A DNA stretch of 64,000 nucleotides from Paenibacillus polymyxa. GTDB taxonomy: Bacteria > Bacillota > Bacilli > Paenibacillales > Paenibacillaceae. The notes beneath the pieces are model-generated. The model did no database searches. It was not told the DNA's origin and saw only the letters and a list, made by a program, of their open reading frames with translations. The DNA lies in the NCBI RefSeq assembly GCF_015710975.1, contig NZ_CP049783.1, positions 5,179,001 through 5,243,000 of the forward strand, read 5' to 3'. Made by a program: the position numbers and the translations under genes. Positions 1 to 55,864 of the stretch are shown here, piece by piece (the stretch's first letter is position 1; each line of letters opens with the position of its first letter).

Positions 1-1458
1 CATTACCCCTTTGGGCTGGCCTGTTGTTCCTGAGGTGTACATAATATAGGCCAAGCGATCAGCTGCGGTCGCCTTCGGTTGTTCTTCAGCTGCATAAACC
101 TGCTGTATTGGTTTAGCTTGTTCTGATTGCGTATCTTCTGTTGGGATAGTTGTAGTAGAAGCAAGTTCGGGACTAGCAGAAATAGAATAGAGTGGGTTTA
201 AGCAGTCCACATATCCCATATTACCCGTATCTGTACTCATCCCGTTATCATACGACAAAACGGAATTGCAGCGATCAGCATCATCTGTTTCATAGATCGC
301 ATCATCACTCAGGTCAAGTACTATTCCCTTAAAATCTGTGGGCCGATGCTCCATTTTTTGTACAAGCAGTATCTTGGTCTCGGAATCCTCCAGCAAATAA
401 CGCACGCGCTCGTCCGGGTAATCAGAGTCAATCGGAACATACACCCCGCCTGCTTTAAGAATCGCGAGCATGCCTACAATCATCTCAATTGAGCGCTCAG
501 CTACAATGCCGACTGTCTGTTCGGTACGGATTCCCTGCTTACGTAAAAAATGAGCCAGTCGGTTGGCCTTTTCATTTAATTTTTCATAGGTTAGGCTATT
601 GGGTCCAGACACTACTGCCACCTGCTGTGGTACCTGCTTCGCCTGTATCTCGAACAATTCATGAATGGAAGCATCACGTGGATAATCTACAGCTGTATCG
701 TTGAAAGTATGAACCAGCTGCTCTACTTCTTGTTCTGACAGCACTTGTGCTGTGCAAATCTCCAACTCTGGCTGATGTAAAACAACGGTATACAGCCGTA
801 ATAGCTGCTCAACAAAGCGTTCAATCGTCATCTGGTCGTAACGGTCGCTACTGTATTTCACGTTTAGAGAAACTGCAGCATTTTCCCATTGAAATTGAAA
901 ATCTAGCTCAGATTGCACGTGATGTAGAAAATCAGAAATGTGAATATTTCGCAAGGAGGCCGTGGTGTGGATAAGAGGCTTGTCGTCCTTGTTACGTAGG
1001 ATTTCAAGCCCCTCGGTATAGTTCCAAAAAGGAATATTTTGGTGTTCAATAGCTTCGCTGACAGAGGTTTTGATCTGAGACAGCAAGGTTTTGAAGGTCG
1101 TTGAAGAATCCAGCGTATTTTTCAATAAAAGCAGATGGTTGATTGGCTTGGTAGCACCGTTGCCAGACTTGGCTACTGGAATGCCCAGCAGCACACTTTC
1201 CTCACCTGTGTATTTATGCAATAAGCTCTCAACTCCAGCCAGCAGAACCATAAACACGGCCCATGGAGCTCCACCTGTTATAGATAATATTCTTTGGGAA
1301 ATTTCAGATGGAAATGTGAGCGTGTACGTAAGAAAATTAGAACTCGTTGCAGCTGTATCCTTGGACACATGATTGGTGTATGGCAAGCAAGTGATATGAT
1401 CCTCAGATTCCAGCTTATGACTCCAGTAGTTTTTTTCCTTCTCAAATAAGGCTTTCAA
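1..1458 (-). CDS. triE: Second tridecaptin-type NRPS, N-terminal part (modules 11 onward; cut by window edge)
   Basis: 486 codons are visible and the gene continues past base 1. Residues about 1-240 match only the C-terminal half of a condensation domain (an NYWSHKL stretch onward); the half with HHxxxDG is absent, so this is a non-catalytic remnant. An adenylation domain then begins (LTYEKLNEKANRL) and reaches core motif [11 protein letters not shown] at the edge. This A domain resembles A1 of the first synthetase, including a long insert before that motif, so Val or Ile is likely; the specificity residues lie outside. I chose the TTG at 1458 because AGGAGG (1466-1471) lies 7 nt upstream; the ATG at 1464 is only 1 nt from it. 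The gene follows the ten-module NRPS by 165 bp, and that synthetase ends in a full C domain that would serve this module. Confidence 0.85.
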   Translation of the reverse strand, partial: MKALFEKEKNYWSHKLESEDHITCLPYTNHVSKDTAATSSNFLTYTLTFPSEISQRILSITGGAPWAVFMVLLAGVESLLHKYTGEESVLLGIPVAKSGNGATKPINHLLLLKNTLDSSTTFKTLLSQIKTSVSEAIEHQNIPFWNYTEGLEILRNKDDKPLIHTTASLRNIHISDFLHHVQSELDFQFQWENAAVSLNVKYSSDRYDQMTIERFVEQLLRLYTVVLHQPELEICTAQVLSEQEVEQLVHTFNDTAVDYPRDASIHELFEIQAKQVPQQVAVVSGPNSLTYEKLNEKANRLAHFLRKQGIRTEQTVGIVAERSIEMIVGMLAILKAGGVYVPIDSDYPDERVRYLLEDSETKILLVQKMEHRPTDFKGIVLDLSDDAIYETDDADRCNSVLSYDNGMSTDTGNMGYVDCLNPLYSISASPELASTTTIPTEDTQSEQAKPIQQVYAAEEQPKATAADRLAYIMYTSGTTGQPKGVM

Positions 1459-1478
1459 TGACATCCCTCCTGCTTCAT

Positions 1479-1596
1479 GGGGTCTGTACCCCTGTTGGAA
1501 TGGTGCTTTGTTACGTAATTGAGCAATGTGTCGGAAAATTAATACTTTGCAGGCAAGGGCAGTCGGACAAGCCGCCGCCCTCTGCGCATGCAAAGT
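1479..1596 (-). promoter_or_regulatory. Structured intercistronic region between the two NRPS genes
   Basis: Two hairpins lie in the 165-bp gap. One spans 1544-1596, with outer arms ACTTTGCA/TGCAAAGT and inner arms AGGGC/GCCCT. The other is GGGGT-CTGT-ACCCC at 1479-1492, just upstream of the ribosome site of the second NRPS. Neither is followed by a convincing T-tract, so they look more like processing, stability or translational elements than terminators. Function is inferred. Confidence 0.4.
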
Positions 1597-1623
1597 GAAA
1601 TCATTTCTTTTTAGAAAACTGAT

Positions 1624-2975
1624 TTAGAAAATAAAGTCGATGGAATCTGGCGAGAAGCCTTCCGGCTGCTCGCTCGAGTTCACCTGAATATCGCTTAATA
1701 GCAAATCTGGATTAGCTCCAACCTGGGACAGGATCGCTATCAAATCTCCGGTTAATCGTTCAATAGCATCTGCGCCAAACAGCTTTGTGCAATATTCGAA
1801 GGAACCCTTGATCTGCCCGTCTTCATCACTCATGGACAAGGTCAAATCGAATTTGGAAATACGATGCTCCTGAACATACGGACTAAAGGACAGTGTTTCA
1901 AGCTTCGCTTCCTGTGACTCCGTATTTTGCAGTACAAACATGGTGTCAAACAACGGATTACGGCTTGCATCCCGCGCTACATCCAGCTTTTCCACCAACT
2001 CCTCAAGCGGATAATCCTGATGCTCGAAGGCTTGTAGCGTACGTTCTCGGGCTTCCAGCAGGTAGCTGTGGAACGTTTGGTCGCCCTGCGGCTGGTGCCG
2101 GATGGCTAGTGTATTGACGAACATGCCGATCAGTGGCTCCAGTTCTGGCAACAAGCGGCCTGCTACCGGCGTACCGATGATCAAATCGTCCTGACCGCTG
2201 TATTTGGACAGCAGGACGGTATAGGCACTCAGTAGCACCATGTACAGCGTACTTCCGGTCTGTGCCGCGATTCGGCGCAGTTGCTCGGATACATTCGAGT
2301 CAACAGTAAAATCATACATTGCTCCCTCGAAGCTGCGAACAGCAGGTCTAGGGTAAGCAATCGGCAGCTCCAGTACAGGCAACTCTCCGGCTAAATGCTC
2401 CAGCCAGAACTGTTCCCGGCGTTGGTATGATTCACGCTGCATTTCCTGCTGCTGCCACACCGCATAGTCCTTGTACTGAATGGGCAGCGGCGCCAAGGCC
2501 TGTCCCTCGTACAATTGTCCCAGCTCCTGCACGATATTGTTAGACGACACACCGTCTGAAATAATATGGTGCATGTCGTACATCAGGAGGTGACGTTCGG
2601 GTCCGGTTTGAATGAGACGGACACGCAGCAGAGGTGCCTGCTGAAGATCGAAGCTGCGTACAAAAGACTCGATATAGGCTTCGGCTTCGGACTCATGGGC
2701 CTGCAGGCGCTCTACTGCAAACGCTACCTGATCGTAAACCCGCTGAACAACCTCGCCGTCCACCATTTCGAAGGAAGTTCGCAGCGTTTCATGGCGGGCT
2801 ATTAACTGACGGAACGCATCCTCCAGTCGATCTGCCTGAAGCGGCCCCTCCACGACTAATACACCCGGCATATTGTAGCTGACCTCCCCACCGTCCAGAT
2901 GGCTCAAAATATACAGTCGTTTTTGAGCCGAGGAAGCAGGATAGTAAGACTGTTTGGCAGCTGTAGGGATCACCG
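1624..2975 (-). other. Terminal condensation domain C11 at the end of the first NRPS
   Basis: This is a complete C domain beginning [14 protein letters not shown] with HHIISDGVS, then a tail of about 25 residues ([17 protein letters not shown]) and a stop. It should condense Glu10 with residue 11 loaded on the next synthetase. Boundaries are approximate. Confidence 0.8.
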
Positions 2976-5900
2976 TATAGGTGTCTGTGCCCTGCGCGGT
3001 GATCAGCTGGGCTTGCTGCTCAATCGTAAAGTGCTGGAACACCTCACGCAGTGTAATTCGGCTGCCCAGTTCCTGATGGATTTTGGCCACCAGCGTCGTG
3101 GCCCGCAGGGAGTGTCCACCCACATCGAAGAATGAGTCGGTGACTCCTACGCTGGACAGCTTCAAGACATCCTGCCAGATTTGGGCTAGCTTGGCCTCCA
3201 GTGGCGTCCGCGGTGCCACATACTCCAGGCCTCCTTCAAGGCGTGCTTCCGGTGCTGGCAATGCCTTCCGGTCAATTTTCCCGTTTGGCGTCAGCGGGAA
3301 ACGATCCAGCTGTACCACATACGTCGGGATCATGTAATCCGGCAGCTTCGGCTGCAGCGCATTCCGCAGTTCCGGTAGACTCAGCGACTCCGAAGCTACG
3401 ATATAGGCACACAGATCCTTGTGTCCGTCCTCGTTTTCCCATGCTGTGACTACGGCTTTCTGAATGCCGTCCACGGTCAGCAGCTGTGCTTCCACCTCGC
3501 CCAGCTCGATCCGATACCCGCGAATTTTGACCTGATGGTCGATCCGGCCTAAATACTCGATACTGCCATCCGGCAGCCACCGTGCCAGGTCGCCTGTCCG
3601 GTACATCCGGTTTGCGTAAGTGCTGTCCGCTGGATCAGCGGCCGTCGCATCAGCAAACGGATTCGGGACAAACTTCTCAGCCGTCAGTTCCGGCAGGTTG
3701 AGGTATCCTCGTGCGATACCTGCCCCTCCGATATAGAGTTCACCCGCGATCCCTATCGGTACCAGCTGTTGTCGAGTGTTCAAGATGTACACAGCCTGGT
3801 TGGCTATCGGCGTTCCGATGGATACCGTGTGCTCCCCTTTTTCCAGCAGTACATTCAGCGACTCTACATCTTCAATCGTATAGGCGGTCGCATCTACGGT
3901 CGCTTCGGTCGGACCATACACGTTCGTAATGACCGGATGATACCCGGACCATTTGTGCAGGAACCCCTGTACCAGCTGCACGGATAAGGCTTCGCCCCCG
4001 ATCAGGTAATGCTTCACATCCGGCGCTTCTGTCACGCTGACGCTTTCGTTCAAAATATGCAGATGCGCTGGTGTGCCGTCCGACAGATCAATCCGGTGCA
4101 TGCGGTAGTAGGCGATCAAATGCTCTCCGCTCAGGCTGACGTCACGGGACACCACATGCAGGGTATGACCTAGCAGCAAGCTGGCAAAGATTTGCTTCAC
4201 CGAAGCGTCAAATACAAATGCGGACAGCCATGCGATGTGAAGCGGCTGAGCATACCGACTGTACACTCGCTCATATAAAGCGTCTACCAGATTGCCGACA
4301 CTGCCTTGCTCAATCATAACCCCTTTCGGCTGACCGGTTGTACCTGACGTGTAAATCATATAGGCCAGGTTATGCAGGCCGGCGACAGGGATCAGGTTGC
4401 TCGCATCCTGTGCTCCCCATTGAGCTTGAACGCCCTCATCGTCAAGGACTATAGCTTCTACTGTGGATGGCAAGCTCAGCGAGAGGTTGGCGGCTCTGCT
4501 GGTGATCACGACCTTGGCCCCACTGTCTTGAAGCATGTAGTCGATCCGTTCCTGTGGATACATCGTATCCATTGGCACATACGCGCCTCCGGCCTTCAGT
4601 ACCCCCAGAATGCTCACCAGAAGATCCGCAGAACGTTCCAGCAGTACGCCTACCGGTTGATCTGCTTCAACACCTTTCGCCCGTAGCACACGGGCCAACC
4701 GGTTCGCCTGCTCATTCAGCTCAGCGTAGGTTAGCGTCATATTCCCAGATACAACGGCTATCCGCTCAGGGCTGTTTTTCGCTTGCTCTTCAAAACGCTC
4801 GCTGAGCGACAGACCTTGGAGTGTTCCACGCACGCTGTGCGCGTTCGGATCATTGAACACCTTCAGAATCTGTTCGGTTTCTTCGGTCGTAATCAGTTCC
4901 AGCTCACCCAGCTTCGCATCCGGGTTTGCCGCCACGGCTTCGGCTAAGCGAATAAAGTGACGTGTCATCCGTTCAACGGTTTCCCGTTGATACAACGCAG
5001 TTGCATATTGCAATCCGAACTGGATGCCTGCCTCTTCCTCTCTGGCTTCCAGCGTGAAGTCAAACTTCGCCGGTGTTTGCTCCAAGCCGTATGGACGGAA
5101 GCTCAGGTCTGCCAGTTGCAGCTCGCCTTCCTCCGTCGTTTGCAGGGTAAACATCGTATCGAACAGCGGATGGCGACTCATATCCCGCTTCACATTCAGC
5201 TTTTCCACCAATTCCTCAAATGGATAGTCCTGATGTTCGTAGGCTTGCAGGGCCCGAACCTTCACTTCTTCCACGTAGCTGCGGAAGGTATGTTCCGCTG
5301 TCGGATAGTTTCGCAATGCCAACGTACCGACGAACATGCCGAGGATTGGCTCCAAATCGGCATGCGGTCGTCCGGCAATCGGCGTGCCGACAACGATGTC
5401 CTCTTGGCCGCTGTATTGATGCAAGAGTGCGGTGTACGCCGCCAGCAGCACCATATACAGGGTAGAGCCTGTGTGCGCCGCCAGTTCCTTCAGGCGTTCG
5501 CTCACTTCGCGTCCCAGCCCAAACACCACGGTATCGCCTGCCGTACTTCGTATCGACGGACGTGCAAAGTCTGTCGGTAAATCCAGCACAGGCAGTTCCC
5601 CCCGGAAGGTGTCGAGCCAGTAGGCTTCCTGGCGCTGCATCCACTTCTGATGGACCTCGCTTTGTTGCCATACGGCATAGTCTTTGTACTGTATCCGCAG
5701 TGGCGGCAGCTTTTCACCGTCATACAAGCGGACAAATTCTTCAGTCAGTACCCCCATCGACACGCCATCCGAAACGATGTGGTGCATGTCGAGCATGAGT
5801 ACATGCTGCGGTTCCTGCCCTGCTCCTGATACGCCTAGATCTACCAAGCCTACCCGCAGCAGCGGTGCGGCTTTGAGATTAAACGGACGGACAAAGCAAC

Positions 5901-8900
5901 TCACCAGCTCTTGTACTTCCTTGTTGACCCTCGTGTCTGTGTCCGTAGTCGCACCCTCAGCTTGTACCTTCGTAAATTCGACCTCGAACGGTACGGTGTC
6001 CTCAATAGACTGCATTGGCTCGCTGTCCACCAGATCAAAGCGGGTACGCAAGGACGCATGACGGGCGATCAGTTGACGGAATACGTCCTCCACTCGCTTC
6101 ACGTCCAGCGGACCGCTCACTTGCAGCACCGATGGCATGTTGTAGTTCACATCCTGCGGATCGAACTGATGCAACACATACAGTCGTTTTTGCGCCGAGG
6201 ACAAGGGATAGAAGCTGCGCTCTTCCGTTACTGGAATGGACGCATATGTTACTTGATCCAGCTGTTCCAATACAACGGCCAGTTGTTCAATGGTTGGTGC
6301 TTCAAAAATACTGCGCAGGGGAAGCGGCTTGTTCAGTTCCTTGTGAATCTTCGAGGCCAGTGTGGTCGCCCGCAGCGAGTGTCCGCCAATCTCGAAGAAG
6401 TTTTCCTTCACACCGACCTGAGTGAGGCCTAGTACATCCTGCCAAATTTGCGCCAGCTTCACTTCCACCCACGTTCGCGGTGCGACATAGTCGGCTCCGG
6501 TTTGCAGGCTGCCTTCTGGTGCTGGCAGGGCCTTGCGGTCGATTTTACCGTTCGGTGTCAGCGGCATTTGCTCCAACTGTACCAAGAAAGAAGGCACCAT
6601 GTAGTTTGGCAGCTCCTCACCCAGTAAACTGCGCAGTTCACCAGCGCTTACGTCTCTTTCAGCGACATAGTACGCCACCAGTTGATTTTGTCCCTGCTCG
6701 TCCGCTTGGGCCAGGACGATGACCTCTTGTACGTCCTCCACTTTCAATATTTGTGCCTCGACTTCGCCCAGCTCAATCCGGTAACCCCGGATCTTTACTT
6801 GATGGTCAATCCGGCCCAAGTATTCGATGTTTCCGTCTGGCATCCATCTTGCCAAGTCGCCTGTGCGGTACATCCGCTCATACCCGGCTTCGCCAGCCGC
6901 AAACGGATTCGGTACAAATTTCTCCGCCGTCAGCTCTGGACGATCCAGGTAACCACGTGCCAGACCCGGACCAGACACGCACAGCTCACCCGCTACGCCT
7001 ATCGGAGCCAAATGCCCGTGTACATCTACCATGTATACCCGATGATTCGGCACAGGACGTCCAATGGAAATCAGCTGTCCTGCTCTCTCATCCTTGGATA
7101 CCGGCCAGATGGATGTCGCTACCGAGTTTTCAGTTGGACCATAGCCATTGTAGTACGCCACCTGATCCTTCCACTTGTATACCAGCTCTGTTGAAGCGGC
7201 TGAACCCGCAGTGACCAGAATACGCAGATTTGGCATCCGCTGCGGCTCCAGATACACCGCATAGGTAGGCGGCAATGCTGCCACCGTGATGTGGTGATCC
7301 GCCATATATTGTTCAAACCGTTCGTAGTCCAAAATCGTCTCTGACGTTGGCACGTACAACGTGGCTCCGCAGAATAGAGCTTGGAAGATTTCCCAGCAAG
7401 CCGCATCAAACGAGTAGCTGGCGAACAGCAACATATGATCTGAGGTACTGATCTCGAATTCCTGATCAAAATACGTTTTCAGATTGCATAGCCCGTGATG
7501 CTCCAGCATAACACCCTTCGGCTGCCCCGTTGTCCCCGATGTATAGATCACATACGCCAGATCGTTCGGACCGGACAACGGCTCCAGGTTAGAACCATCC
7601 TCGTGATACACACTTTCTGCCCCATTCAGCACCAGCATGTGACCGTCGAAAGCTACTTTGTCCACCAGATGACCTTGAGTTAATAACAGCTTCGCTCCCG
7701 AGTCATCCAGCATATAGCGGATACGCTCTTCCGGATAGGTTGGATCGATAGGTACATATGCTCCTCCGGCTTTCAAAATGCCTAACATACCCACGATCAT
7801 GTCTATCGAGCGTTCGGTCATCAGACCCACCAGCCGATCTTTTGTCACACCTTGACTGCGCAAGGTACGAGCCAGACGATTCGCGCGTTCATTCAGCTCG
7901 CGATAAGTCAACTGCTCTCCTTCGAAGTACAACGCTGGCTGCTCTGGTGTGTGCGCCGTTTGTGTCTCAAACAGACCATGGATCGTTTGCTCGCTTGGAT
8001 ACTCGGCGGCTGTATCTCCCCATACGCTGAGAATTTGCTCGCGTTCCTGCTCGCTTAACACATCCAGTTCCTGCACCCGAATGTCCGGATTCGCTACCAC
8101 TTGTTCCAGTAGCTGTATTAAATGGCCCTGAGTCCGTTCCACGACTTCCCGATCAAATAACTTCGTATTGTACTCAAATCGGATTTTCATCGCTTCCTGC
8201 GGCATGACGACCAGATTGAAATCATAGTTCGTTTGTTCAATCATACCTGCATTGCTGATTACAAAATCCGACGCTGCACCTTCGCCAAGCTGCTCGACCT
8301 GCTCCTCCACCGGATAGTTTTCAAACACGATAATGTGGTTGATCAGCTCTTGCTTTTGCTCGGTCAAGGCTTGAATTTCATACAGCGGATACGTTTCATA
8401 ATCTTGAGAAGCCAGCGCCTGCTGCTGATTCGTTCTAATCAGGTCGGCAAAGGTGTCCTCAGCTCCACTACGGATACGTACGGGAATGGTGTTAATGAAC
8501 AAGCCCACCATATTTTCGATCCCCGGAATATCAGCCGGACGACCCGACACGACACCGCCAAATATAGCATCATCACTACCGTTGTACTTTTGAAGCAGTA
8601 AGCCCCAGGCTGTTTGCAGTAATGTATTCGGGGTCACGTGGTACTGCTTGGCTACCATTTCCATGCGCCCTGTCAAATCCTTACCTAGATCGCACAACAC
8701 ATGCTCAAATTGTGCACCGTCCGCTTTTGCGCCGACTTTTCCGGTTGGAATCGACGTTTGTTGATCATAGCCCAGCAAATAATCTTTCCAGTATGAGGCT
8801 GCTGCTTCTACATCCTGGGCTTCAAGCCACTCAATATACTGACTGTATGGAGTCACCGGGGCGAGCTTTGGTTCTCTATGTTCTACGGCTGCAAAATAAG

Positions 8901-16068: not shown

Positions 16069-17490
16069 ACATTTCCAAATCCATCGATGAGTTGCTCTTT
16101 TTCCTCGGCGGTTACCATATTCAAAACTGCCAGGGGCTGCTGTGGATGATAGGCAATAGCTCGAACGATTTCCGCAAAATGCTGTGCCAATCGCGTCATG
16201 GTCTCCGGCTTGTACAGCGCCGTGCTGTATTCCAGACTGCACAGAATACCTTCTGGCTGCTCTATGGCCTCCAAGCTCAGATCAAACTTGGCCGTATGAT
16301 TGTCCAGTGGATAGGAGCTCAAGGTCAGACCTTCCAGCTCGAACTCCTGCTGCTCCATTGTTTTCAGCTCAAACATCGTGTCAAACAGCGCATTCCGGCT
16401 CGTATCCCGCGTTACATTCAGTTTTTCAACCAGTTCTTCAAACGGATAGTCCTGATGCTCATACGCACGGAGCGCATGCTCTTTGACCTCCTGCAGATAA
16501 TCCAGGAACGATTTGTCGCTGGACGGATAATTGCGGATCGCCAGCGTGTTAATGAACACACCCACCAGATTACTGAGCTCCGCATGCGGTCGTCCGGCAA
16601 TCGGCGTGCCAACGACGATGTCCTCTTGAGCTGTGTATTTGTGTAAGAGCGTAGTGTACGCCGCCAACAACACCATATACAGAGTAGCGCCGGTTTGTGC
16701 CGCCAGTTCTTTCAGGCGTTCACTAACCTCACACTCTAGTACAAATTCGATCGTATCCCCTGCCGTACTCTGCACCGCTGGGCGGGCAAAGTCAGTAGAG
16801 AGATCCAGTACAGGTAGTTCACCTTGGAAGGTGTCAAGCCAGTACGCTTCCTGACGCTGCATCCATTCCTGGTGGGCTTCGCTTTGCTGCCATACGGCAT
16901 AATCCTTGTACTGAATCCGCAATGGCGCTAGCTCTTCACCGCCATACAAGCGGACAAACTCGTCGGTCAGGACCTCCATGGATACCCCATCCGAGACGAT
17001 ATGGTGCATGTCAAGCATAAGCAGATGTTGAGCTTCCTGCTCTACTCCCTGAGCGCCCAGATCCACCAAGCCTACCCGCAGCAGCGGCGCAGCTTTGAGA
17101 TCAAACGGACGAACAAAGCTCCGTACCCGCTGTTGCGCTTCTATGTTGACTCTTGTGTACGTATCTGTAGTTGTGTCCTGATCTGTGTCCGCAGTCGCAC
17201 CCTCTGCCTGTACCTTCGTATATTCCACCTCGAACGACACAGTGTCCTCAATCCATTGCATTGGCTCGCTGTCGATTAGCTCAAAGCGAGTACGCAAGGT
17301 CGCATGGCGGGCAATCAGTTGACGGAATACGTTCTCTACTCGTTTCACATTCAGCGGACCGCTCACTTGCAGCACCGACGGCATGTTGTAATTCACATCC
17401 TGCGGGTCGAACTGATGCAGCACATACAGTCGCTTTTGTGCCGAGGACAGTGGGTAGAAACTACGCTCCTCCGTCACCGGAATGGACGCA
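14110..17490 (-). other. NRPS module 7 (C-A-T): L-Dab; frameshift in the C-A linker
   Basis: The A7 code is DVGEISSIDK (Dab). C7 is L-type (HHIVSDGVS) and the carrier is GGHSLRATT without an E domain. A one-base loss at 16065-16068 falls in the linker between C7 and A7, outside any catalytic motif. Boundaries are approximate. Confidence 0.85.
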
Positions 17491-37300: not shown

Positions 37301-40300
37301 ATGCTCGATCATGACACCTTTTGGACGTCCTGTTGTCCCCGACGTATAGATCACATACGCCAAGTCTTGCGGCTCGTTGATACGTTCAATATCCGTGGTA
37401 TCCCCGGTGTACAGCGACTCATCGTCAAGTGCCAATACAGTACGCAGACGCAGCCCTGTTGCCGGTTCGGATGCTGCTTCGCTGTCAGACTTCGAATCTG
37501 CTTTCAAGCTTACGCCTTCATTCTTTTGACGGTCTCTTTCCATCGTTTCAGCGCTAACCGCCGTCTCCAGCACACCCTCGCTCTTTCCTTCGCCCATAGC
37601 CCATTGGCTTTCCTCCAGCCAACCCTGTGCGCGCTCCTGCAAGCCGATTTGCGTGAGCAGCACCGTCGCACCGCTGTCCTCCAGCATGAAACGAATGCGA
37701 TCGGACGGATAGTCTGCATCCAGCGGCACATATGCACCTCCGGACTTCCATACCGCTAGTACGCCGACCAGCATGTCCACCGAACGCTCGCTCAAGATGC
37801 CGACAATCGATTCGCGTCCAATGCCCTCATTCCGCAATCTACGGGCCAGTTGGTTCGCGCGCTCGTTCAACTCGCGGTACGTAAGCTGCCGCTCCTCGTA
37901 TACAACGGCCACATGATCCGGCATAAGCTGCGCTTGTTCTTCCACATAGGCGTGGAACAACAATTCCGATTCCTTTTCATCACTCCATGCAGCTACGCCT
38001 ACTGATCCAAAACCATCGATGATGTTCGCTTTTTCCGCAGCAGTCACCAGCTCAAGCTCATCCACCAGTGCATCTGGTCGGTGAATCGCTTCTTCAATCA
38101 TATGCAGCAAATGCTCACGGATTTGCTCTACAGCTGTACGTTCCAACACCTGCGCGTTGTACTCCAAATGGACATGGATTTCATCGCCCGGCACCACGGT
38201 GATGTTGAAATCATAGTTTGTTTGCTCTGACATGGAAGCATTGGCAATCGTAAAGCCATTGTTCCCGCGGCTACCCATCTGCTCCATGCGCTGTTCCACG
38301 GGGTAGTTTTCAAACACGATAATATGGTTCACCAGGTCCTGCTTCTGCTCGGTCAGGGCCTGAATTTCATACAACGGATAGGTTTCATAGGAACGGGAAG
38401 CCAGTGCCTGCTCCTGAATCTGCTTCATTAGCCCAGCAAACGTCATCTCTTTCTCACTGTGAATCCGTACAGGAACGGTGTTAATGAACAACCCAATCAT
38501 TTTGTCGATGCCCGGAATATCCGCTGATCTGCCGGAGACGACACTGCCAAACACCACATCCCGACTGTTGTTATACCGCTGTAGCACAACGCCCCACGCT
38601 GCTTGCAGGAATGTGTTGACCGTCACTTGCTTTTGCTTAACCAGCTTGTTCATCCGCTCCGTCACTTCACGGCCCAGTGTAAATGAAAGCTTGTCCGCTT
38701 CATATGCTTTAGCGTGACCGTCCAGCTGTTTGACCTGCGGCAATACGGTCTGCTGCTCAAAACCTGCAAAATAATCACGCCAGAACCGTTCTGCCTCCGC
38801 GTTGTCCTGCCGATCCAGCCATTCAATATATTCACTGTATGGCGTTACCGGGGCAAGCTCCGGCTTGCGGTCTTCAAGGATGGCAAAGTACGTATGAAAC
38901 GCTTCCCCGACAACCAGGAACAAGCACCAGCCGTCCATCAAAATATGATGAAAGCTCCATACAAAACGGTACGACTCCTCACCTGTACGTAAAATAGACA
39001 CCCGCATTAGCTCGCCTGAGCTGAAATGAAAGCCTGCCGCTTTGTCACGTTCCGCAAAATCAGCAAGGTATGCGGCCTGCTCTCCTGGTTCCATCGAACG
39101 CACATCTTCAAACCGGAATCCAGCCGCTTTATGGCGGTACACTACCTGTAAAGGCTGCTCATTCCAGCCACTATAAAAATTCGTTCTGAATATTTGATGG
39201 CGATCCACCAGCTGATTGAGGCTTTCGGCAAAAGCCTCCACTTGAAAGCTGCCTTGCAGATCAAATGTCGCCTGCTCAAAGTACGCCCCGGATTGCGGCT
39301 CCATGAAGCCGTGGAACAGGATGCCTTTTTGCATAGGGGTTAACGAATAAATGTTTTCCAGTTCTCCAGCAGCAGCCGTCTGCTCTACAATATGATCCAG
39401 TTCTCCGGCTGTCAGTCCCTGGAAGGACAAATCGCTTGGGGTCAGCTCCGGCAGCTCTTTGGCCACACAGTGAGCCAACACCTCACGCAAGCTCTCCTGC
39501 AGCAGATCAGCCAGTTTTTTGATCGATTTTTTCATAAACATTTTGTTGCTGTAGCTGATCGTCAGTTCCAGGGCACCGTCCGTGATCATGCCATTGATAT
39601 CCAGAGCGTACCGCTTGGTCAACGTGTCACTCATGGAAGCTCCGACGGAATAAGGAGACATGCGGAATGCATTCTGCTTCAAATCCTGATCGAATTGGCC
39701 GAGATAGTTAAAGCTGATTTCCGGCTCGACCACAAAAGCTGATTTCCCTTCCCCATCAGCAAGATATCTCAAAATCCCGTATCCAATCCCTTTATGCGGC
39801 AAACGGCGTAGCCCTTCCTTGACGTTCTTGACACGCTGTCCCACATTCCGGTCCTCGCCCATATCCAGGACCACTGGAAATTGGCTGGTAAACCAACCGA
39901 CGGTGCGCGTAATATCCATATCCGGCAAAATGGCTTCCCGTCCATGACCCTCCAGATTTACAAGCACCTGACCGATGCCTGCCCACTCCTGAACGGCCGT
40001 ACCCAAAGCTGTCAGCAGCAGGTCGTTTGCTTCTGTATTGTAGGCCCGATGGGCTTGTTTCAAAAATTGTTCCGTTTCTTCGACCGTCCACGCTACGGTC
40101 AGTGTCCGATCATCGCGAAGCTGTGGTTTGGCCTGAGACTTACGAGTATAATCCTTAGGCAATGCCTCTTGTGCAGCACCAGATCGCTCCACCTGCTCCC
40201 AATATGGCCGTTCCTTCTCCAACGCAGTGCTGTTCGCATAAGCTGACAGCTGATCCGCCCAAAGGCGGAAGGAATCCGTCTTATTCGGCAAGCGGACAGA

Positions 40301-43300
40301 CTCGCCCTGTAAAGCCTGCTCGTAACCTGTTGCCAAATCCTCCAGCAAAATACGCCAAGACACGCCGTCGACCACCAAATGGTGGATCGCTACCAACAAA
40401 TGGTCTCCATTGGTGCAACGGAACAGACCCAGCTTTACCAGCGGTCCTTCATGTAGATGGATGCTACTTTGAATTTCGCTAGCTTTGCTCTCCAGCAAAT
40501 GGGCAAAGTCAGACTCCTGGGTATAATCCACCACTTCGAGGCTATACAGCTCTCCTTCTTGCACACCACGGTTCCATGCTTCATAACCACCCTCTGCATT
40601 TTGGCGGAATACGATGCGCAAAGCATCATGATGCTCGACAATGCATTGCAATGTTTGATGAAGCGCCGTTTCGTCCAAACGATCCTCACGGTGCAGCATC
40701 AGAGCCTGGTTATAGTGCTCAGGATTAGATGGCTGCTGTTCAATAAACCAGTGCTGAATCGGTGTCAAGGCCACGTTTCCTCTGACTTCTCCTTGATCGG
40801 ACACGCGGGTCACCCGCTGCACCCGTCCATTTAGCTCAGCAATCGTTGGATACTGGAACAGTTCTCTCATTTCCAGCTTGTAACCATTTTGCAGCAATCT
40901 CGAAGACACCTGGATGGCCTTAATCGAGTCGCCTCCCAAATGGAAGAAGTTATCCAGTACACCAATTTGTTCGATACCCAGTACAGATTGCCATACCGAT
41001 ACCAATATCCGCTCTACCTCATTACGGGCGGCTACATAATCCTCGCCGGAATCCACGCTTCCCTCCGGCTGTGGCAACGCCCGCCGATCCACCTTGCCAT
41101 TCGGTGTCAACGGCAATTGCTCCATCTGTACAAAATACGACGGCACCATGTAACCTGGCAATTCCTGGCTCAAGGCGCTTCGTAGCTCACTTGCCGTAAT
41201 ATCCGCAAGGGTGACCACATATGCGCAAAGCTGTTTTTGTCCCTGCTCATCCTCACGTGCAATGACGACGGCTTCTTGCACCGCCTCCAGCTTCAACAGC
41301 TGCGCTTCCACCTCGCCCAATTCAATCCGGTAGCCACGGATTTTCACTTGCGCGTCGATCCGTCCTTTGTATTCCAACGTCCCGTCCTCATTCCAGCGAA
41401 CCAAATCGCCTGTACGGTAGCAACGCTCTCCACTGCGGAACGGACTATCTATGAACTTTTCAGCTGTTAAATCAGGACGATTCCGGTAGCCACGTGCCAC
41501 CCCGTCGCCGCCGACGATCAGTTCACCCCATGCCCCCACAGGCTGAAGTTGCATGGAACGGTCTACGACATACGCTGTGGAGTTGTGGATCGGACGCCCG
41601 ATCGGCACTGCTTCCGATTGCACGCCAGCAATCGCATGAGTTGTAGAAAAAGTTGTATTTTCCGTCGGGCCATAGCCATTGATAATCCGTAGGGACGGAT
41701 GAGCCTCCAGCACCCGGTTAATGTGCGGTACGGATAACACATCACCGCCGACCAACAGTTCTTGTACCCCCTCGAACAACTCCAGATCCTGCTGGGATAG
41801 CTGGTTAAAGAGTGGCGCAGTCAGCCACATTGTTGTAATACCATGGCTGCGGACAGCTTCCTTGAGCTTCGGCGCATCCAAAATGACATCCTGGCTTACC
41901 AGTACAAGCTGTCCTCCATTCAGCAACGCACCCCAAATTTCGAAGGTGGACGCGTCAAAGACAACAGCGCCGGTTTGCAAAATGCGCGTGTCAGCACCCA
42001 GTTGCGCATAGTTTGTATTTTTCACCAAGCGCACAACATTGCGGTGTTCTACCATAACCCCTTTAGGCTGTCCGGTCGTACCCGAAGTGTACATAAGATA
42101 GGCAAGTCGATTACCAAATGGATGTGCTCCAGTAGTACTGTCTACGACAGACGAAGAAGATTCCTTTAAAAGGTCATTTTTCAGATTTGAATAATAGGTA
42201 AAATCTGCATGACTAGCTTCGTTTTGTTCCCCATGTATGTTATTTGCATCTTGATTATTCTCTGCCTCGTACACAGCGGCATCGCTCAGATCCAGCACAA
42301 TTCCGGTGTAATCCTCCGGTTGCTGTTTCGCATGCTGCACCAGCAGCAACTCCGCTCCCGAATCTTCCAATAGGTAGCGCACACGTTCAGCCGGATAATC
42401 AGGGTCAATCGGCACATATGCGCCGCCCGCTTTGAGAATCGCCAGCATGCCGACGATCATATCTACGGAACGCTCAGCAACGATACCTACAGTTCGCTCA
42501 GTGGTAACACCGTTCCCGCGCAGCGTGTGAGCCAGCCGATTGGCTTTTACATTCAATTCGCCATAAGTTAAATGGGCGTTGTCAGACACAACTGCTGTCT
42601 GATTCGGTGTACGTGCCGCCTGTTCCTCAAACAGCTCATGAATGCCTGCTTCGTGTGGGTATTCCACTGCTGTAGCATTGAATACGTCGACGATTTCCAC
42701 CCGTTCTTCCTCACTGATCAGCGACAATTCCTCTATCCGCTTGTGTGGGCCCTGTACCATATGCTCCGCCACACTCAAAAATTGTTGAATAATTCGAGCA
42801 ATTTCCTGCTCACTAAACAGCTCGGTACGATAATCCAGGTATAATACGAGTCTATCGTCATCCAGCATTTCAACCATGTGAATATCGAAGTCGTTCACTG
42901 TATCTCCGCAGAAATCGTTATCCACCTGCTGAATCGCTTCATCAAAACGGGAGAAGCTCAAGGTACGGTACTGAATAGATGCCCCAAATAAACGTTGGAT
43001 GTCCAGACTACTTTGCTGTTCGCGTAAATCTTGAATAATTTTGTTGTACGGGTAACGCTGATGCCGCAAAATGGACGCCTGCTCCTTCCCTACACCCTGC
43101 AAGAAGGCCAGCAGTTCGGATTCCGGTTCGACCAACAGACGAGTAGCCACGGTGCTGACGAACATGCCGATGGTATCCTTTTCTTTCTTAGACGTACGGT
43201 TGGCATAGAGAGTCCCTACGGTTAAGTCCTGCTCACCCGTCACTTTATGCAAATAAATATACAGAGCCGCCAGAAAGAACGTGAAAATACTGATTTTATG

Positions 43301-44023
43301 TTCCTCGCAAAAAGCCGTAACACCACGATACAATTCATGCTTCAGTATAAAACTCTCCCGGCGTGCAGCTGTGCTCAGTGTCAGCGGGTTATATGATTTT
43401 AAGCCTGTGGTCTCTGGCAAATCAGCAAACTTTTCCGTCCAATACGTCTTGTCCTTTTGATAACGGTCAGATTGCTCATAGCTTTGCTCTACCTGAATAA
43501 AATCCAGATAAGGATTGCCTTTGGTCGGTGCATCCTGACCTGTACCATGCACAATATTCATATAATGTCCGGTGATTTCATTAATGGCCTGATTCATGGA
43601 CACGCCGTCCGAAATAATATGATGCATTTTAAAATTGAACCAGGTTTCTTCTACCCCTAGCTGTAAAATAACAAATCGGTACAGCTGCGAATCCAACAAT
43701 GAGAACGGTTGTGGATTATGGCGCTTTAACCATTCATTCGCTTCTTCCGGGGTTACTTGAAGCGTTTCAATATTTTCCGCTGTAAACGGCTCTACATATT
43801 GATATGGGATTCCATCCTGAGCAGTGATTTTGATACGGAAAGAATCGTTTTGGGCAATCACTCGGTTCATTGCTTGCTGCAATGCATCTATACGAACAGT
43901 TCCTCTAATTTTTACAGTACCGATAATGGTTGAAGTGTTCCGATGAGGATACAAAAGCTCCGTATACCAAATACGTTGCTGTGGCTGGCTTAGGGAAAAC
44001 AATTGAACATCTTGCTGTGTCAT
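22727..44023 (-). CDS. triD: Tridecaptin-type NRPS, first reading-frame segment (starter C1 to A5)
   Basis: This is the 5' part of the lipopeptide synthetase. Domain order with approximate residues: starter C1 (1-440), A1 (480-990), T1, E1 (1086-1530), C2 (1540-1985), A2 (2040-2555), T2, E2 (2670-3120), C3 (3150-3580), A3 (3635-4110), T3, E3 (4200-4650), C4 (4685-5125), A4 (5185-5680), T4, E4 (5770-6210), C5 (6240-6675), A5 (from 6720). C1 is N-terminal and is expected to attach the fatty acyl chain. Codes predict Val, Dab, Gly, Ser, aromatic. The frame breaks after YRTG at about 22790 by one missing base and stops at 22727. I chose the ATG at 44023 because GAGGAG lies 8 nt upstream; the ATG at 44041 overlaps that site. 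With one base restored at each of the two breaks, the whole gene (44023 to 1624) is exactly 14,134 codons. Confidence 0.9.
25320..29990 (-). other. NRPS module 4 (C-A-T-E): D-Ser
   Basis: The A4 code is DVWHFSLVDK (serine). C4 has HHIVMDGWC. The E domain has a standard [10 protein letters not shown] motif. The A domain is nearly identical to that of module 6. Boundaries are approximate. Confidence 0.87.
29990..34600 (-). other. NRPS module 3 (C-A-T-E): Gly, with an epimerisation domain
   Basis: The A3 code reads DILQMGMVWK, closest to the glycine code DILQLGLIWK. The T domain is the GGDSIKAIQ type, followed by a full E domain with intact [10 protein letters not shown] and EGHGRE, although glycine has no chiral alpha carbon. 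The following C4 is D-type. Boundaries are approximate. Confidence 0.82.
34600..39400 (-). other. NRPS module 2 (C-A-T-E): D-2,4-diaminobutyrate
   Basis: The A2 code is DVGEISSIDK, which I know as the Dab code of polymyxin-type synthetases. C2 carries HHILMDGWC (acceptor of a D-residue donor) and an E domain follows. An insert of about 60 residues sits before [11 protein letters not shown]. Boundaries are approximate. Confidence 0.87.
39400..44023 (-). other. NRPS module 1 (C-A-T-E): D-Val, lipoinitiation
   Basis: The A1 specificity residues read DAFWLGGTFK, the classic valine code apart from a conservative change. The starter C domain has [10 protein letters not shown]1 has [10 protein letters not shown] and EGHGRE. 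An insert of about 70 residues rich in Asn, Ser and Asp precedes the [11 protein letters not shown] motif. Boundaries are approximate. Confidence 0.85.
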
Positions 44024-44074
44024 CCGTCTCTCTCCTCGCAAAATAGATATTTGGTAAAAAGAAAATTCGCATAT

Positions 44075-45940
44075 TTATGCGGTTTGTTCCTCTGGATGCT
44101 TTCGAAACTGAAGCTCATACAGCTCCGCATAATGACCACCCTCAGCAAGGAGCTGGTCATGAGTTCCCTGTTCTTTGAGCTCGCCATCGGCAAGAACACA
44201 GATCGTATCCGCCCTCTCAATCGTAGACAATCGATGGGCAATAACTAATGTCGTACGATCCTTCATCAGCTCATCTAAGCCCTGCTGAACTTCATATTCC
44301 GACTCTGCATCCAGGGCCGAGGTGGCTTCATCCAGCAGCAAAATCGGCGCATTTTTGAGCAGAGCACGGGCAATCGCGATTCGCTGTCTTTGACCCCCGG
44401 ACAAATTGGCTCCGCGTTCACCGACAATCGTGTCATAACCCTCCGGAAGCTCAGCTATGAAGCCGCTGGCATAGGCTGTTTTGGCCGCAGCCTTTACTTC
44501 CTCATCCGTGGCATCCGGTGAGCCGAAGCGGATATTGTCTGCTACTGTACCGTGGAACAGTGTAGCCTCCTGTGGTACATAGGCCATTAAATCCCTAACC
44601 TCATCCAACCGAAATTCTTCTGCCAAGCGGCCGCGAACCCGCAGCACACCTTCATCCGGTGGGTAAAATCCCAGCAACAACTTCATCACGGTGCTTTTCC
44701 CACCACCACTCGGACCGACAATCGCGGTTACCTGCCCTTCTGGCACGACCAAGTTCAATCTTCGCAGCGTTGGACGGTCTGGCTGATAGCCAAAGCTGAT
44801 ATTGTGCAGCTCCAGCGCAGCAGCAGTCTGTTCAATAGAGAGGTCTGAATCCACAGTCTCGACACCGTCATAGGATTCCTTAGGTTCACGGGCTGATGAA
44901 GCTGACACCTCTGGATCGATAAGCCCGGTTACTGATTCCTTCTGTTTCGCCGCGGGAAACTGTTCCTCTTCCTTCGACTCATTCAAGATTTCGCGGATAC
45001 GCGCCAAGCCTGCCAAAGAGTTTTGTAACAGGGATACAGCTGCCCCCAGCTCCAAAAATACCGTTGAAATACCCGTTTGCAGCTGCACAATCTGTCCCAA
45101 AACTCCGAGCTCCATTTGCTTCTGCGAAACCAAGATCAATCCAGCAACAAGCACACCGCCCAGCGTAATAAATTCAATAACAAAATTACACATATCCTGC
45201 AGTCCCATATGACGTCCCTGTCGGATACTGATGCGATTTATGTCCTCGCTTGCATCGTTGCAAAGTCCACCCACTTTTGTCCTTAACCCAAATAACTTCA
45301 CCGTCTGTAAACCGGAAAGCAAATCACTCAATCGTTCCGTGAACCTGCTCATCCGTCCCTGTAATTCTTCACTCGTCTGTCGCATTTTCTTCGCAAAATG
45401 AGCATTTATCCAGGCTGAAGCTAGTCCTAGTAGAACCGCCATAATCCCAAATCGCCAATCCAGCACCATCAGAATGACTAGTGAGCCTAAGAAAAGCGAA
45501 GTTTCCAGTATAATCGAGCGAATATGAACGGTGTAAGCCTGCTCCAGCGTTTGGACATCGTTTGTCATGCGGGAAACAAGATTACCCGAATGGTGTTTTT
45601 CGGCTTTTTCATACGATAGCTTGACAACATGACCGAATAGTTTCATTCGTACATCGGCAATTGCGAGCTTGACACATCGTTTATACATATAGCTGCACAC
45701 TGGGGAAATAAGACTTAACGCCAAAAATGTGCCGCTGACCAAATAGACCGCTCGGTACAGCTCCTGTACATCGCCATTAACCGCAAAATTCAGCAAATAA
45801 TGCACCACAAAAGAAAGCAAAATTGTGATGCTGGCATTGGTCAGACTGTTGCCAACCAACCCCGTAAAATACCATTTTCGATGCGGCTTCATCAGGGACA
45901 TCAATTGCTTAAATTCATAAAACCCCTGCTTGAAGGTCAC
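44075..45940 (-). CDS. triC: ABC exporter, membrane and ATPase domains fused (second of the pair)
   Basis: This is a half-transporter of the ABCB/MsbA type, about 621 residues. An N-terminal six-helix membrane domain (residues about 15-310) is followed by a nucleotide-binding domain with Walker A GPSGGGKST, signature LSGGQRQR and Walker B ILLLDEATSALD. A charged, poorly conserved linker separates the two. Together with the upstream exporter it probably forms a heterodimer that exports the lipopeptide or protects the producer. I chose the GTG at 45940: AAGGAG lies 8 nt upstream, and the start overlaps the preceding gene by 26 nt, suggesting translational coupling. The open frame continues to 46036, but that part lies inside the upstream gene. 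The NRPS starts 51 bp after the stop. Confidence 0.88.
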   Translation of the reverse strand: MTFKQGFYEFKQLMSLMKPHRKWYFTGLVGNSLTNASITILLSFVVHYLLNFAVNGDVQELYRAVYLVSGTFLALSLISPVCSYMYKRCVKLAIADVRMKLFGHVVKLSYEKAEKHHSGNLVSRMTNDVQTLEQAYTVHIRSIILETSLFLGSLVILMVLDWRFGIMAVLLGLASAWINAHFAKKMRQTSEELQGRMSRFTERLSDLLSGLQTVKLFGLRTKVGGLCNDASEDINRISIRQGRHMGLQDMCNFVIEFITLGGVLVAGLILVSQKQMELGVLGQIVQLQTGISTVFLELGAAVSLLQNSLAGLARIREILNESKEEEQFPAAKQKESVTGLIDPEVSASSAREPKESYDGVETVDSDLSIEQTAAALELHNISFGYQPDRPTLRRLNLVVPEGQVTAIVGPSGGGKSTVMKLLLGFYPPDEGVLRVRGRLAEEFRLDEVRDLMAYVPQEATLFHGTVADNIRFGSPDATDEEVKAAAKTAYASGFIAELPEGYDTIVGERGANLSGGQRQRIAIARALLKNAPILLLDEATSALDAESEYEVQQGLDELMKDRTTLVIAHRLSTIERADTICVLADGELKEQGTHDQLLAEGGHYAELYELQFRKHPEEQTA

Positions 45941-47750
45941 GACGCTCACTCCTTTCCTCAGGCAGTGAATACCCGTTTTCCTCCGTTTGCTGTCCTTCAA
46001 AATTTTGCAAATACAGCTTTCGGTACACACCTTCACGGCCTAGTAATTCCTCATGTGTACCCGATTCCACAATGCTCCCCTGATCAAGTACGATAATGCG
46101 GTTCGCCTGGCGTACAGTTGACAGTCGATGAGCTATGACCAGTACCGTCCGGTTTTGCATTGCTGCATTCATTGCAATCTGTACCTGAGCCTCCGACTGG
46201 CTATCGAGTGCTGAAGTCGGCTCGTCCAGTAGAAGCAGCGGAGCATTTTTCAGCAATGCTCTTGCTATAGAAATACGCTGCTTTTGTCCTCCAGACAATC
46301 CGCCTCCCCGTTCGCTCAACAGAGTTTCATAGCCCTCGGGTAGCTGAACAATAAAGTCATGCGCATGTGCCGCTTTCGCCGCCTCGACAATTTCTTTCCG
46401 GGTCGCCTCCAGACGTCCATATCCGATATTTTCTGCAATAGTGGCCGGAAAAAGCGACGGTTCCTGAGATACCATCGAAATATGGCTACGCAGGCTTGTT
46501 AGGTTCCAATCTGTTAAATTCTTACCAAACAATTGAACGGTTCCGGCATGCTCTCCAGGTTCATTAAATCCGCAAAGCAGCTTGAAGATTGTGCTTTTAC
46601 CGCCACCGCTGGCCCCAACAATCGCTACCGTTTCTCCTTGTCCTACCTGGAAGCTAATCTCCTTCAGCACCGTGTTCCCTTCGTTGTAGCCAAAGGTTAA
46701 ATGCTCAAAGCTGACTACAGGAATGTCGTCCTTGCTTTCTGCATCGTCTTCCTTGAGATCTTGGCTTATTGAAGTGATTTTCCCGTCTTGCCGCTCATCT
46801 GGCCAATCCAGCACCTCAAACAAATGCTTCGCTGCTCCCCCCGCTTCCTTCATTTGCGAAATGATCGTCGGCAGCATGGCAACAGGCTGCAATATGAACG
46901 AAATAAGATATAAAAAAAGGACAATGCCACCAGCATTCAACTCACCTTGTTGAATCAAATATCCACCGTACACAATGACCAAAATAATCGGTGTTGCCAG
47001 CATCATCACACCTACTGGAGTTATGAACGCATAGCGTTTTTCTAGCCGCAATCCGCGCTTGATGACCTCCTCCGTAATCACCATATACTTCTTCAACAGC
47101 ACAGCCTGCATATTAAATGCCTTGACGATAGGAATTCCTCCGATCGCATCCTGTCCCACCGCGTTCAAATGAGCAATTTTCTCCTGAAGCTCCTTGGAGT
47201 ATTTCTCAATTGGCTTGCTCATCAGTGAGGTTATGATCATTCCTACAGGCATAAGCGCAAGACTTGCCAAAACCAGTTTCCAGCTTGTCAGTAAAAGCAA
47301 CGTTAAGGATGCCGTAAACACAAGTGGCAAATAAAACAGATTAGCAAACTGCTGGATAAAAAAGTTCTGCAACAGCGCCGTATTGTTTGTTAGACGGGAT
47401 ACCAAATCTCCGGTGAACTTGCTCTCCACGCTGGAAACAGGTAAATCATAAAACTTATGTACGAGATCGCCTCTCAAGTCGCGCAGGGCACTAACACTAA
47501 AACGTGCCGAAGCGTACCTCATCACAAACTTACAAGGCATTCCAATTACCGTCATACCAACAACTAGATAGATCATGTTCTGGGTGGAGGAGAATGTTCC
47601 CTGTGCCATTTGCTCTATGGCCTTACCCAAAATAATGTCAATAGCTGCCAAACACAAGGAGGAAATCACGGCTATAAAAACCCAAAGATTATAAGGCTTT
47701 ATATAACGTGTGAGTCTCCGAAAAGCAGAATTTGATCGAAACAAAGGCAT
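45915..47750 (-). CDS. triB: ABC exporter, membrane and ATPase domains fused (first of the pair)
   Basis: 611 residues. Six predicted membrane helices in about the first 310 residues are followed by an ATPase domain with Walker A GASGGGKST, signature LSGGQKQR and Walker B LLLLDEPTSALD. The family exports lipids, peptides and drugs; the position between the thioesterase and the synthetase suggests lipopeptide export or self-resistance. The ATG at 47750 directly abuts AGAGGG, leaving no spacer. The TTG two codons later (47744) has a 6-nt spacer and may be the real start. The 3' end overlaps the next exporter by 26 nt. A 206-bp gap without an obvious promoter or terminator separates it from the thioesterase gene. 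Confidence 0.88.
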   Translation of the reverse strand: MPLFRSNSAFRRLTRYIKPYNLWVFIAVISSLCLAAIDIILGKAIEQMAQGTFSSTQNMIYLVVGMTVIGMPCKFVMRYASARFSVSALRDLRGDLVHKFYDLPVSSVESKFTGDLVSRLTNNTALLQNFFIQQFANLFYLPLVFTASLTLLLLTSWKLVLASLALMPVGMIITSLMSKPIEKYSKELQEKIAHLNAVGQDAIGGIPIVKAFNMQAVLLKKYMVITEEVIKRGLRLEKRYAFITPVGVMMLATPIILVIVYGGYLIQQGELNAGGIVLFLYLISFILQPVAMLPTIISQMKEAGGAAKHLFEVLDWPDERQDGKITSISQDLKEDDAESKDDIPVVSFEHLTFGYNEGNTVLKEISFQVGQGETVAIVGASGGGKSTIFKLLCGFNEPGEHAGTVQLFGKNLTDWNLTSLRSHISMVSQEPSLFPATIAENIGYGRLEATRKEIVEAAKAAHAHDFIVQLPEGYETLLSERGGGLSGGQKQRISIARALLKNAPLLLLDEPTSALDSQSEAQVQIAMNAAMQNRTVLVIAHRLSTVRQANRIIVLDQGSIVESGTHEELLGREGVYRKLYLQNFEGQQTEENGYSLPEERSERRDLQAGVL

Positions 47751-47956
47751 CCCTCTTTTTCATTGCCACACTTTAGCAGTGCGAACTTTTTAGATTGGCG
47801 ATGGACGTCATTGAAGTAAACTCTGTGTCTGAAATGATGAGGGCCTGTACAGAAAAATTGGATTTTAATCTACGCTGGAAAATGCATCATGGTGGGTGGT
47901 TTTATCGGTTATTGCTGAGATGGTGATAACGAAGTGTATCGTGATGTGTGGGACAT

Positions 47957-48781
47957 TCAACTCTGCCTGAATCGTGGTTGTGGAGTGCTTGTGTTGTAAG
48001 TTGTATGAGCTGCCGCAGCGTGGGCCATCGGCGAGGATGCGGAGAGAATGTCCTCGACTGCGCTCATAACCTCTTGCTCTTGTTCATGGATGAAAAAGTG
48101 ATTGCCTTCGAACATCCGGACATCCATAGGTGACATCGTATGCTGCTGCCAGGCACGAAGTGAATCTGTGCTAACCTCAAAATCCCTCGTTCCCCCTAAA
48201 ACCGTCATCGGGCATGCCAGTGGATCTCCCGGCTGATAAACATAAGTTTCACATACCTTAAAATCTGCACGCAGACGAGGCATAATAATTTGCATCAATT
48301 CTGCATTTTGCAGCACCTCTTCGGGGGTGCCCTGCATCAAACGAAGCTCTTCGGTGAAAGAATCGTCTGCTAAATTATGGAGCCGTTTCTTGGAGTATGG
48401 AAGTTGAGGAGCGGATTTACCAGATACGATGATATGCACAGGTAGTTTTCCAGCTTTGCTGTATAACTGCCGCGCTGTTTCAAATGCGATCAGTGCCCCC
48501 ATACTGTGCCCAAAAAAGGCAAATGGCTTATGTATGTATGGAGCCATAGCGGGAACCAACGATTGGACGATGTCTTGAAGGGTTTCCATTGGAGCTTCAG
48601 TGGAGCGGCTCTCACGTCCTGGGAGTTGTATTGGCAACACAGTAATATCAGGCGCGAGCCTGGACTTCCAAGAGTTAAATATGTAAGCACCACCACCGGC
48701 GTAGGGGAAGCAGAATAGTTGGAGCTTCGCAGTCGGTTGGGCCTCTGTTTTAGCGAACCAAGATTGTGATCGAGTCGTCAT
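47957..48781 (-). CDS. triA: Type II (external) thioesterase of the lipopeptide cluster
   Basis: 274-residue alpha/beta hydrolase of the GrsT/SrfA-D type, which clears mis-primed or stalled acyl groups from carrier domains. It begins with the family's FCFPYAGGGA oxyanion region (about 23-32). The nucleophile elbow is GHSMGA with Ser93, the Asp lies in RDFEVS, and the His in EGNHFFIHE near the C-terminus. I chose the ATG at 48781 because GGAGG lies 7 nt upstream; the open frame extends 39 codons further, but that part is Lys-rich and unlike the family. It is the first gene of the cluster, followed by the exporters. Neither synthetase segment visible here has an integrated thioesterase. Confidence 0.92.
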   Translation of the reverse strand: MTTRSQSWFAKTEAQPTAKLQLFCFPYAGGGAYIFNSWKSRLAPDITVLPIQLPGRESRSTEAPMETLQDIVQSLVPAMAPYIHKPFAFFGHSMGALIAFETARQLYSKAGKLPVHIIVSGKSAPQLPYSKKRLHNLADDSFTEELRLMQGTPEEVLQNAELMQIIMPRLRADFKVCETYVYQPGDPLACPMTVLGGTRDFEVSTDSLRAWQQHTMSPMDVRMFEGNHFFIHEQEQEVMSAVEDILSASSPMAHAAAAHTTYNTSTPQPRFRQS

Positions 48782-54387: not shown

Positions 54388-54393
54388 GCCCGT

Positions 54394-55851: not shown

Positions 55852-55864
55852 CGCCTTTTCCTCC

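Follow-up and report, generated by a model that had tools for sequence, protein, structure and literature searches.

Paenibacillus terrae NRRL B-30644 has been reported as a producer of tridecaptin A (PMC4408349), and its triA-E cluster was used as the reference for the present locus. According to one account of the family, tridecaptin A1 contains Val1, Trp5, Phe9, aIle12, and Ala13, tridecaptin B1 differs from A1 in the tail and at positions 1 and 9, and tridecaptin M1 differs from B1 in that Ile replaces Val11 and Ser replaces Ala13 (PMC8127968). It follows from these B1-A1 and M1-B1 differences, as given there, that A1 has Val11. The same source depicts the A domains of the family as loose, with tridecaptin M variants differing at positions 5, 9, 11, and 12 (PMC8127968). 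Position 9 is described as setting the spectrum of tridecaptins, the change from Phe to Trp extending activity to Gram-positive bacteria (PMC11106739).

We analysed a stretch of 64,000 nucleotides (the window; bases 5,179,001-5,243,000 of contig C1, which has 5,916,392 bases) together with 40 kb to its left, which was added as L009 and overlaps the window by 1 kb. Judged from its sequence, the locus is very probably (ca. 0.9) a Paenibacillus tridecaptin cluster for a tridecaptin A-type congener with Ile11 and a Trp-like pocket at position 9, in which triD is interrupted twice in this assembly. Ten proteins of the window were scanned with profiles, and the three belonging to the cluster were two ABC transporters and a thioesterase (Table 1); motif scans placed a very large NRPS on the minus strand adjoining the exporter genes. 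The genes follow the order thioesterase, two ABC transporter genes, 10-module TriD, and 3-module TriE with a TE. The triE gene (modules 11-13 and TE) runs on leftward from the window to L009:9251, and the far end of TriE carries a carrier domain (PF00550) and a thioesterase domain (PF00975, 6.4e-25); this terminal TE, located in L009, is distinct from the free-standing thioesterase. The initial annotation had placed modules 11-13 and the TE just outside the window; they were indeed found to the left, except that one lobe of a C domain and the beginning of A11 lie inside. A dat gene (diaminobutyrate aminotransferase) was found elsewhere in the genome with an open frame and a score above the cut-off. 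To the right of glpX, MacB-, ABC-, HlyD-, and OEP-like genes occupy window positions 52460-57148, and a gene for a beta-lactamase-fold protein follows triE (L009:7084-8985).

Table 1 Genes and reading frames of the cluster within the window
Feature	Position	Strand	Profile or ORF
triA-like free-standing thioesterase	47957..48898	-	PF00975 8.4e-54
triB-like ABC exporter gene	45915..47750	-	PF00664 + PF00005
triC-like ABC exporter gene	44075..46036	-	PF00664 + PF00005
triD frame 1: modules 1-4, C5, most of A5	22727..44041	-	7104 aa ORF
triD frame 2: A5 end, E5, module 6, C7	16059..22787	-	2242 aa ORF
triD frame 3: A7 to module 10 + C domain for residue 11	1624..16242	-	4872 aa ORF
triE start: C-domain C-terminal lobe, then first part of A11	1..1593	-	PF00668 185-456; PF00501 1-181

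Thirteen A domains were found across the window and the left extension, and the ten in the window, all on the minus strand, make up modules 1-10 as previously annotated. E domains follow modules 1, 2, 3, 4, 5, 8, and 12, the arrangement of tridecaptin clusters; those of modules 1-5 and 8 had been assigned before and were confirmed by the motif HHLVVDxxSW. DGWC-type C domains (HHIxMDGWC) are present in modules 2-6, 9, and 13, each directly after an E domain, and those of modules 2-6 and 9 bear out the matching C domains claimed for the window. The C domains of modules 1, 7, 8, 10, 11, and 12 carry HHIxSDG. Module 3 has a Gly code and yet an E domain, as does that of P. terrae NRRL B-30644, whose E5 motif, HHVVVDGISW, was counted as E. 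The triD part closes with a complete C domain (profile 2-451), and TriE opens with the C-terminal lobe only (185-456). Because the C domain for residue 11 also lies inside the TriD ORF in G025, G027, G013, and G063, this split between TriD and TriE looks like a family trait.

The pocket codes were DAFWLGGTF, DVGEISSID, DILQMGMVW, DVWHFSLVD, and DAWAFAGVA for modules 1-5, DVWHFSLVD, DVGEISSID, DVGEISSID, DAWAVAGVA, and DAKDLGVVD for modules 6-10, and DAFFLGITF, DAFFLGVTF, and DVFWLGGTF for modules 11-13. Ten of the 13, including those of modules 2, 4, 5, 6, 7, 8, and 10, are identical to the codes of P. terrae NRRL B-30644, which has DAWTFAGVA at 9, DAFWLGGTF at 11, and DAFFLGITF at 12. Colinearity of residues 1-10 with tridecaptin A1, as proposed from the window, thus holds for nine of ten codes and breaks at module 9. 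A text search of a limited paper collection found DVFWLGGT in one paper and did not find DAWAVAGV, DAWTFAGV, DAWAFAGV, or DAFFLGIT. From tridecaptin and code tables, we take tridecaptin residues 2-4 to be Dab, Gly, and Ser, residues 6-8 to be Ser, Dab, and Dab, and residue 10 to be Glu. We infer the residues from the codes common to both clusters, a single published producer being the basis for linking code to residue, and the predicted peptide is Val-Dab-Gly-Ser-Trp-Ser-Dab-Dab-(Trp/Phe)-Glu-Ile-(Ile/Val)-Ala.

The A9 code, DAWAVAGVA, did not recur when the codes of eight other clusters were read. At position 278 this pocket carries the Ala of the Trp5 domains, and at position 299 Val replaces Phe; it is nearer to the Trp pocket than to the Phe pocket. 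Over a 335-residue core, the identity of A9 was 89.9-93.1% against the A5 (Trp) domains from seven further clusters and, barely unlike this, 90.7-91.3% against three Phe-coded A9 domains; it was 91.9% against the A9 of G025, which has a Trp5-like code, and 88.4% against the A9 of G013. The code differs from that of the G025 A9 as well. The placement of A9 in the A-domain tree was not resolved, and a search of solved structures returned the A domains of gramicidin and tyrocidine synthetases as the nearest. Residue 9 might be Trp or a mixture of Trp and Phe, which is a guess made at low confidence.

The code of module 11 equals the Ile code of module 12 in P. terrae NRRL B-30644, and in the tree A11 forms a pair (99/95) with the A11 of G060, which also has the Ile code; the Val11 that had been expected is thus not supported. 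For the expected D-aIle12, module 12 has the E domain, but its code is one pocket residue off that of the producer; Ala13 was borne out by the code of module 13. The assignment to a tridecaptin-type cluster therefore stands at the level of the family by order, module count, E and C types, codes, and flank, whereas identity with A1, which matches by code at Val1 and Ala13, is not supported at positions 9, 11, and 12. It could still be argued that the product is tridecaptin A1 itself, with Phe9 and Val11, since ten of the codes agree with those of the producer, the E domains stand where the producer has them, and the family's A domains are described as taking more than one residue (PMC8127968). 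The Ile code of A11 with its grouping and the presence of Ala, not Thr, at position 278 of the A9 pocket make this very improbable. We prefer a tridecaptin A-type congener, which probably differs from the best-known tridecaptin at one or two positions. It is well supported that the locus is an ordinary member of the family, with Ile11 and the pocket at 9 as a modest predicted novelty. As a natural cluster with a further type of pocket at 9 together with Ile11, it would add a testable tridecaptin congener.

In the proposed route, triA would supply a thioesterase, triB and triC an ABC exporter, triD ten modules, and triE three modules with the TE. By analogy with the family, the first C domain would join the fatty acid to Val1; TriD would then assemble residues 1-10 and TriE residues 11-13, and the TE would free the product as a linear peptide. 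The product would be acyl-D-Val-D-Dab-Gly-D-Ser-D-Trp-Ser-Dab-D-Dab-(Trp or Phe)-Glu-Ile-D-(aIle or Val)-Ala, and its export and activity on lipid II are likewise presumed from the tridecaptin family. For the peptide part without the acyl group, the calculated neutral monoisotopic masses are 1446.76 with Trp9/Ile11 and 1407.75 with Phe9/Ile11, compared with 1393.74 for tridecaptin A1.

Among the described congeners, tridecaptin A5 of Paenibacillus sp. JJ-21 shares the Trp-like pocket at 9 and is presented as A1 changed at position 9 only (PMC11106739). It retains residue 11 of A1, unlike the Ile code here, a comparison that draws on the published description of A5 (PMC11106739). Tridecaptin M of Paenibacillus sp. 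M-152 is alike in Ile11 and in the gene set as far as described (PMC6535564, PMC8127968). It has Gly1, Ile9, and Ser13, where the codes here indicate Val1, an aromatic residue 9, and Ala13. Codes were read from 34 TriE-like proteins, picked by identity and length from the 120 listed among 2129 matches, and four of the 34 (P0001, P0002, P0003, and P0018) combine the Ile11 and Ala13 codes. P0001, which stands for 28 member sequences at 90%, is 100% identical to the present TriE over the 500 residues compared, and P0018 is from Paenibacillus sp. NRS-1782. Because these four proteins combine both codes, the Ile11/Ala13 type of TriE is already in sequence databases; literature searches found no text on this type.

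The cluster shares gene order, module number, E and C types, and the right flank (CBS-domain gene, kinase/pyrophosphorylase gene, glpX, triA, triB, and triC) with that of P. terrae NRRL B-30644 (L012), from which it differs in the codes at 9, 11, and 12 and in having triD as three ORFs. The segment from the CBS-domain gene through the kinase/pyrophosphorylase gene, glpX, and triA to the start of triB is kept in all six stretches compared (L011, L012, L013, L018, L019, and L021), in which the triA counterpart adjoins triB at 80.5-91.6% identity. The triB-like gene was 86-93% identical (607-611 of 611 residues) and the triC-like gene 84-91% identical to those of P. ottowii, two strains of P. terrae, and P. 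farraposensis. The triB match ends after 268 residues in P. brasilensis KACC 13842 (L018) and after 189 in Paenibacillus sp. BJ-4 (L021), and the stretches of these two strains that were compared gave no triC match. In BJ-4, the shortened triB is followed by part of the beta-lactamase-fold gene that here follows triE. These observations suggest that the cluster has been naturally lost in some lineages. In P. tyrfis (L014, L015), relatives of triA-C were found at 60-66% identity, with no matches to the flanking genes.

The reading frame of triD is not open in this sequence. One frame change falls near 22.79 kb, inside A5 but past its pocket residues, and the other near 16.07 kb, in the interval from the HH motif of C7 to A7. 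A single triD ORF of 14,057-14,093 aa is present in five of eight other clusters (G025, G027, G013, G063, and G075, the last being P. terrae NRRL B-30644), the count being confined to clusters in which the whole triD region was read. The triD of G060 is split once (11,354 and 2,793 aa), G061 has an ORF of 10,773 aa in which the later modules are different, and the G023 region, which contains 1,045 N, is fragmented; G062 (three modules after triC, 20 N) and G008 and G019, which run off their contigs, stand outside the count. Because triD is interrupted twice, this copy would give no full-length TriD in the form sequenced, and the cluster may not yield the antibiotic predicted from its codes. 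The interruptions, absent from the initial annotation, bear directly on any search for the product mass in culture extracts, and they are a warning for genome mining that codes alone do not prove a gene to be open.

Several, though not all, further NRPS genes of the genome are interrupted as well. The counterpart of a 7,926-aa ORF of G027, which is of fusaricidin size and which we take to be fusA, is split by an in-frame stop (G000:C1:1757001-1787000; L108, L109). For a 6,273-aa ORF of G027, presumably pmxE-like, the counterpart has a frame change with strong divergence around the break (G000:C1:2667001-2687000; L110), and L110 offers no good match to 960 residues of that ORF. The counterparts of the 5,786-aa and 3,373-aa ORFs of G027 contain three frame changes in total. 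The NRPS locus G000:C1:4905001-4938000 (L111, L112), with these three frame changes, is 99.5-100% identical to G027, as against 91.2-92.5% for triD, and possibly reflects a recent exchange.

Errors of sequencing or assembly in an intact and productive cluster would account for the triD interruptions, and we give this reading about an even chance. The three ORFs span the single 14,093-aa ORF of G027 end to end with no further interruption (frame 1, 92.5% to residues 1-7083; frame 2, 91.2% to residues 7083-9318; frame 3, 91.3% to residues 9323-14093). Small losses beside runs of equal bases are a signature of long-read error. Each of the three frame changes in the second NRPS locus (L111, L112) is a single small loss, and two of these adjoin a run of seven identical bases. 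Four breaks, of which triD has one and the second locus three, were scored as a single change in length, and every one of the four is a loss. However, the longest runs of equal bases next to the two triD sites are of three and four, the second site shows several small differences from G027, fusA has an in-frame stop rather than a frame change, and frame changes are denser in the NRPS genes than in the 400 kb adjoining the window. A polishing failure in repeats, considered within the cluster only, is unsupported as the cause, since at a threshold of 95% identity no 400-base piece of triD among those tested matched a second place in the cluster.

Real interruptions, by which triD would be a recent pseudogene, no tridecaptin would be made, and several lipopeptide loci would be decaying, have a chance slightly short of even. 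Consistent with them, several genes that are open in G027 are interrupted here, namely triD, the counterparts of fusA and pmxE, and two in the further NRPS locus; in the compared stretches of P. brasilensis KACC 13842 and Paenibacillus sp. BJ-4, the triB match ends early and triC has no match; and G060 likewise has a split triD. A frameshift in a fusaricidin synthetase gene has also been reported for the tridecaptin producer P. polymyxa NRRL B-30509 (PMC4408349). On the other hand, some NRPS genes are intact (triE and frames of 5001, 1127, and 2887 aa), some 14,000 codons of triD show no further decay, some of the losses are next to seven equal bases in a row, and the evidence for real interruptions comes from one assembly. 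A broader reading, in which an Ile11 and Ala13 congener with a relaxed aromatic pocket at 9 (Trp/Phe mixture) belongs to a strain that has recently suffered breaks in several genes of its lipopeptide repertoire (triD, the counterparts of fusA and pmxE, and the further NRPS locus), much of the antibiotic set being lost together, appears rather doubtful. The preferred reading remains the tridecaptin A-type cluster with triD interrupted in this sequence.

Frame changes numbered six in 120 kb of NRPS genes and three in the 356 kb compared near the window (binomial 0.010; 0.028 without pmxE), a weak comparison in that detection is easier in very long ORFs and the criterion for counting, at least 100 matched aa on both sides, was set after the list had been seen. 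The control flagged ten frame changes each way, both for this genome against the ORFs of G027 (356 kb) and for G027 against the ORFs of this genome (352 kb); with at least 100 aa on both sides, three remained in this genome and one in G027, seven and nine being dropped. The 400-kb control stretch of this genome includes 5,000 N. MFS genes, taken as a control, have split copies in both genomes.

Other arrangements were observed among the relatives. A second 10-module NRPS ORF, 14,084 aa long, is present in G027 (L105-L107, G027:C1:2732001-2792000), and its codes resemble those of tridecaptin B/M (Gly1, Ile9). Close downstream of it, no A-domain match fitting a second triE was found, and two types of TriD might share one TriE in G027. 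In G061 (L041-L043, G061:C1:4223901-4283900), modules 1-6 with tridecaptin A codes are followed by different modules; this hybrid cluster has ORFs of 10,773 and 2,963 aa, the codes DAWMFAGII, DAQDLGVVD, and DVWMLAAII, and extra C-domain stretches. G013 (L038-L040, G013:C1:3050201-3110200) shows another tridecaptin-type arrangement, with DVFWLGGTF (the Ala13 code) at 3, a Gly code at 6, Ser codes at 7 and 13, and DAWTVAGVA at 9.
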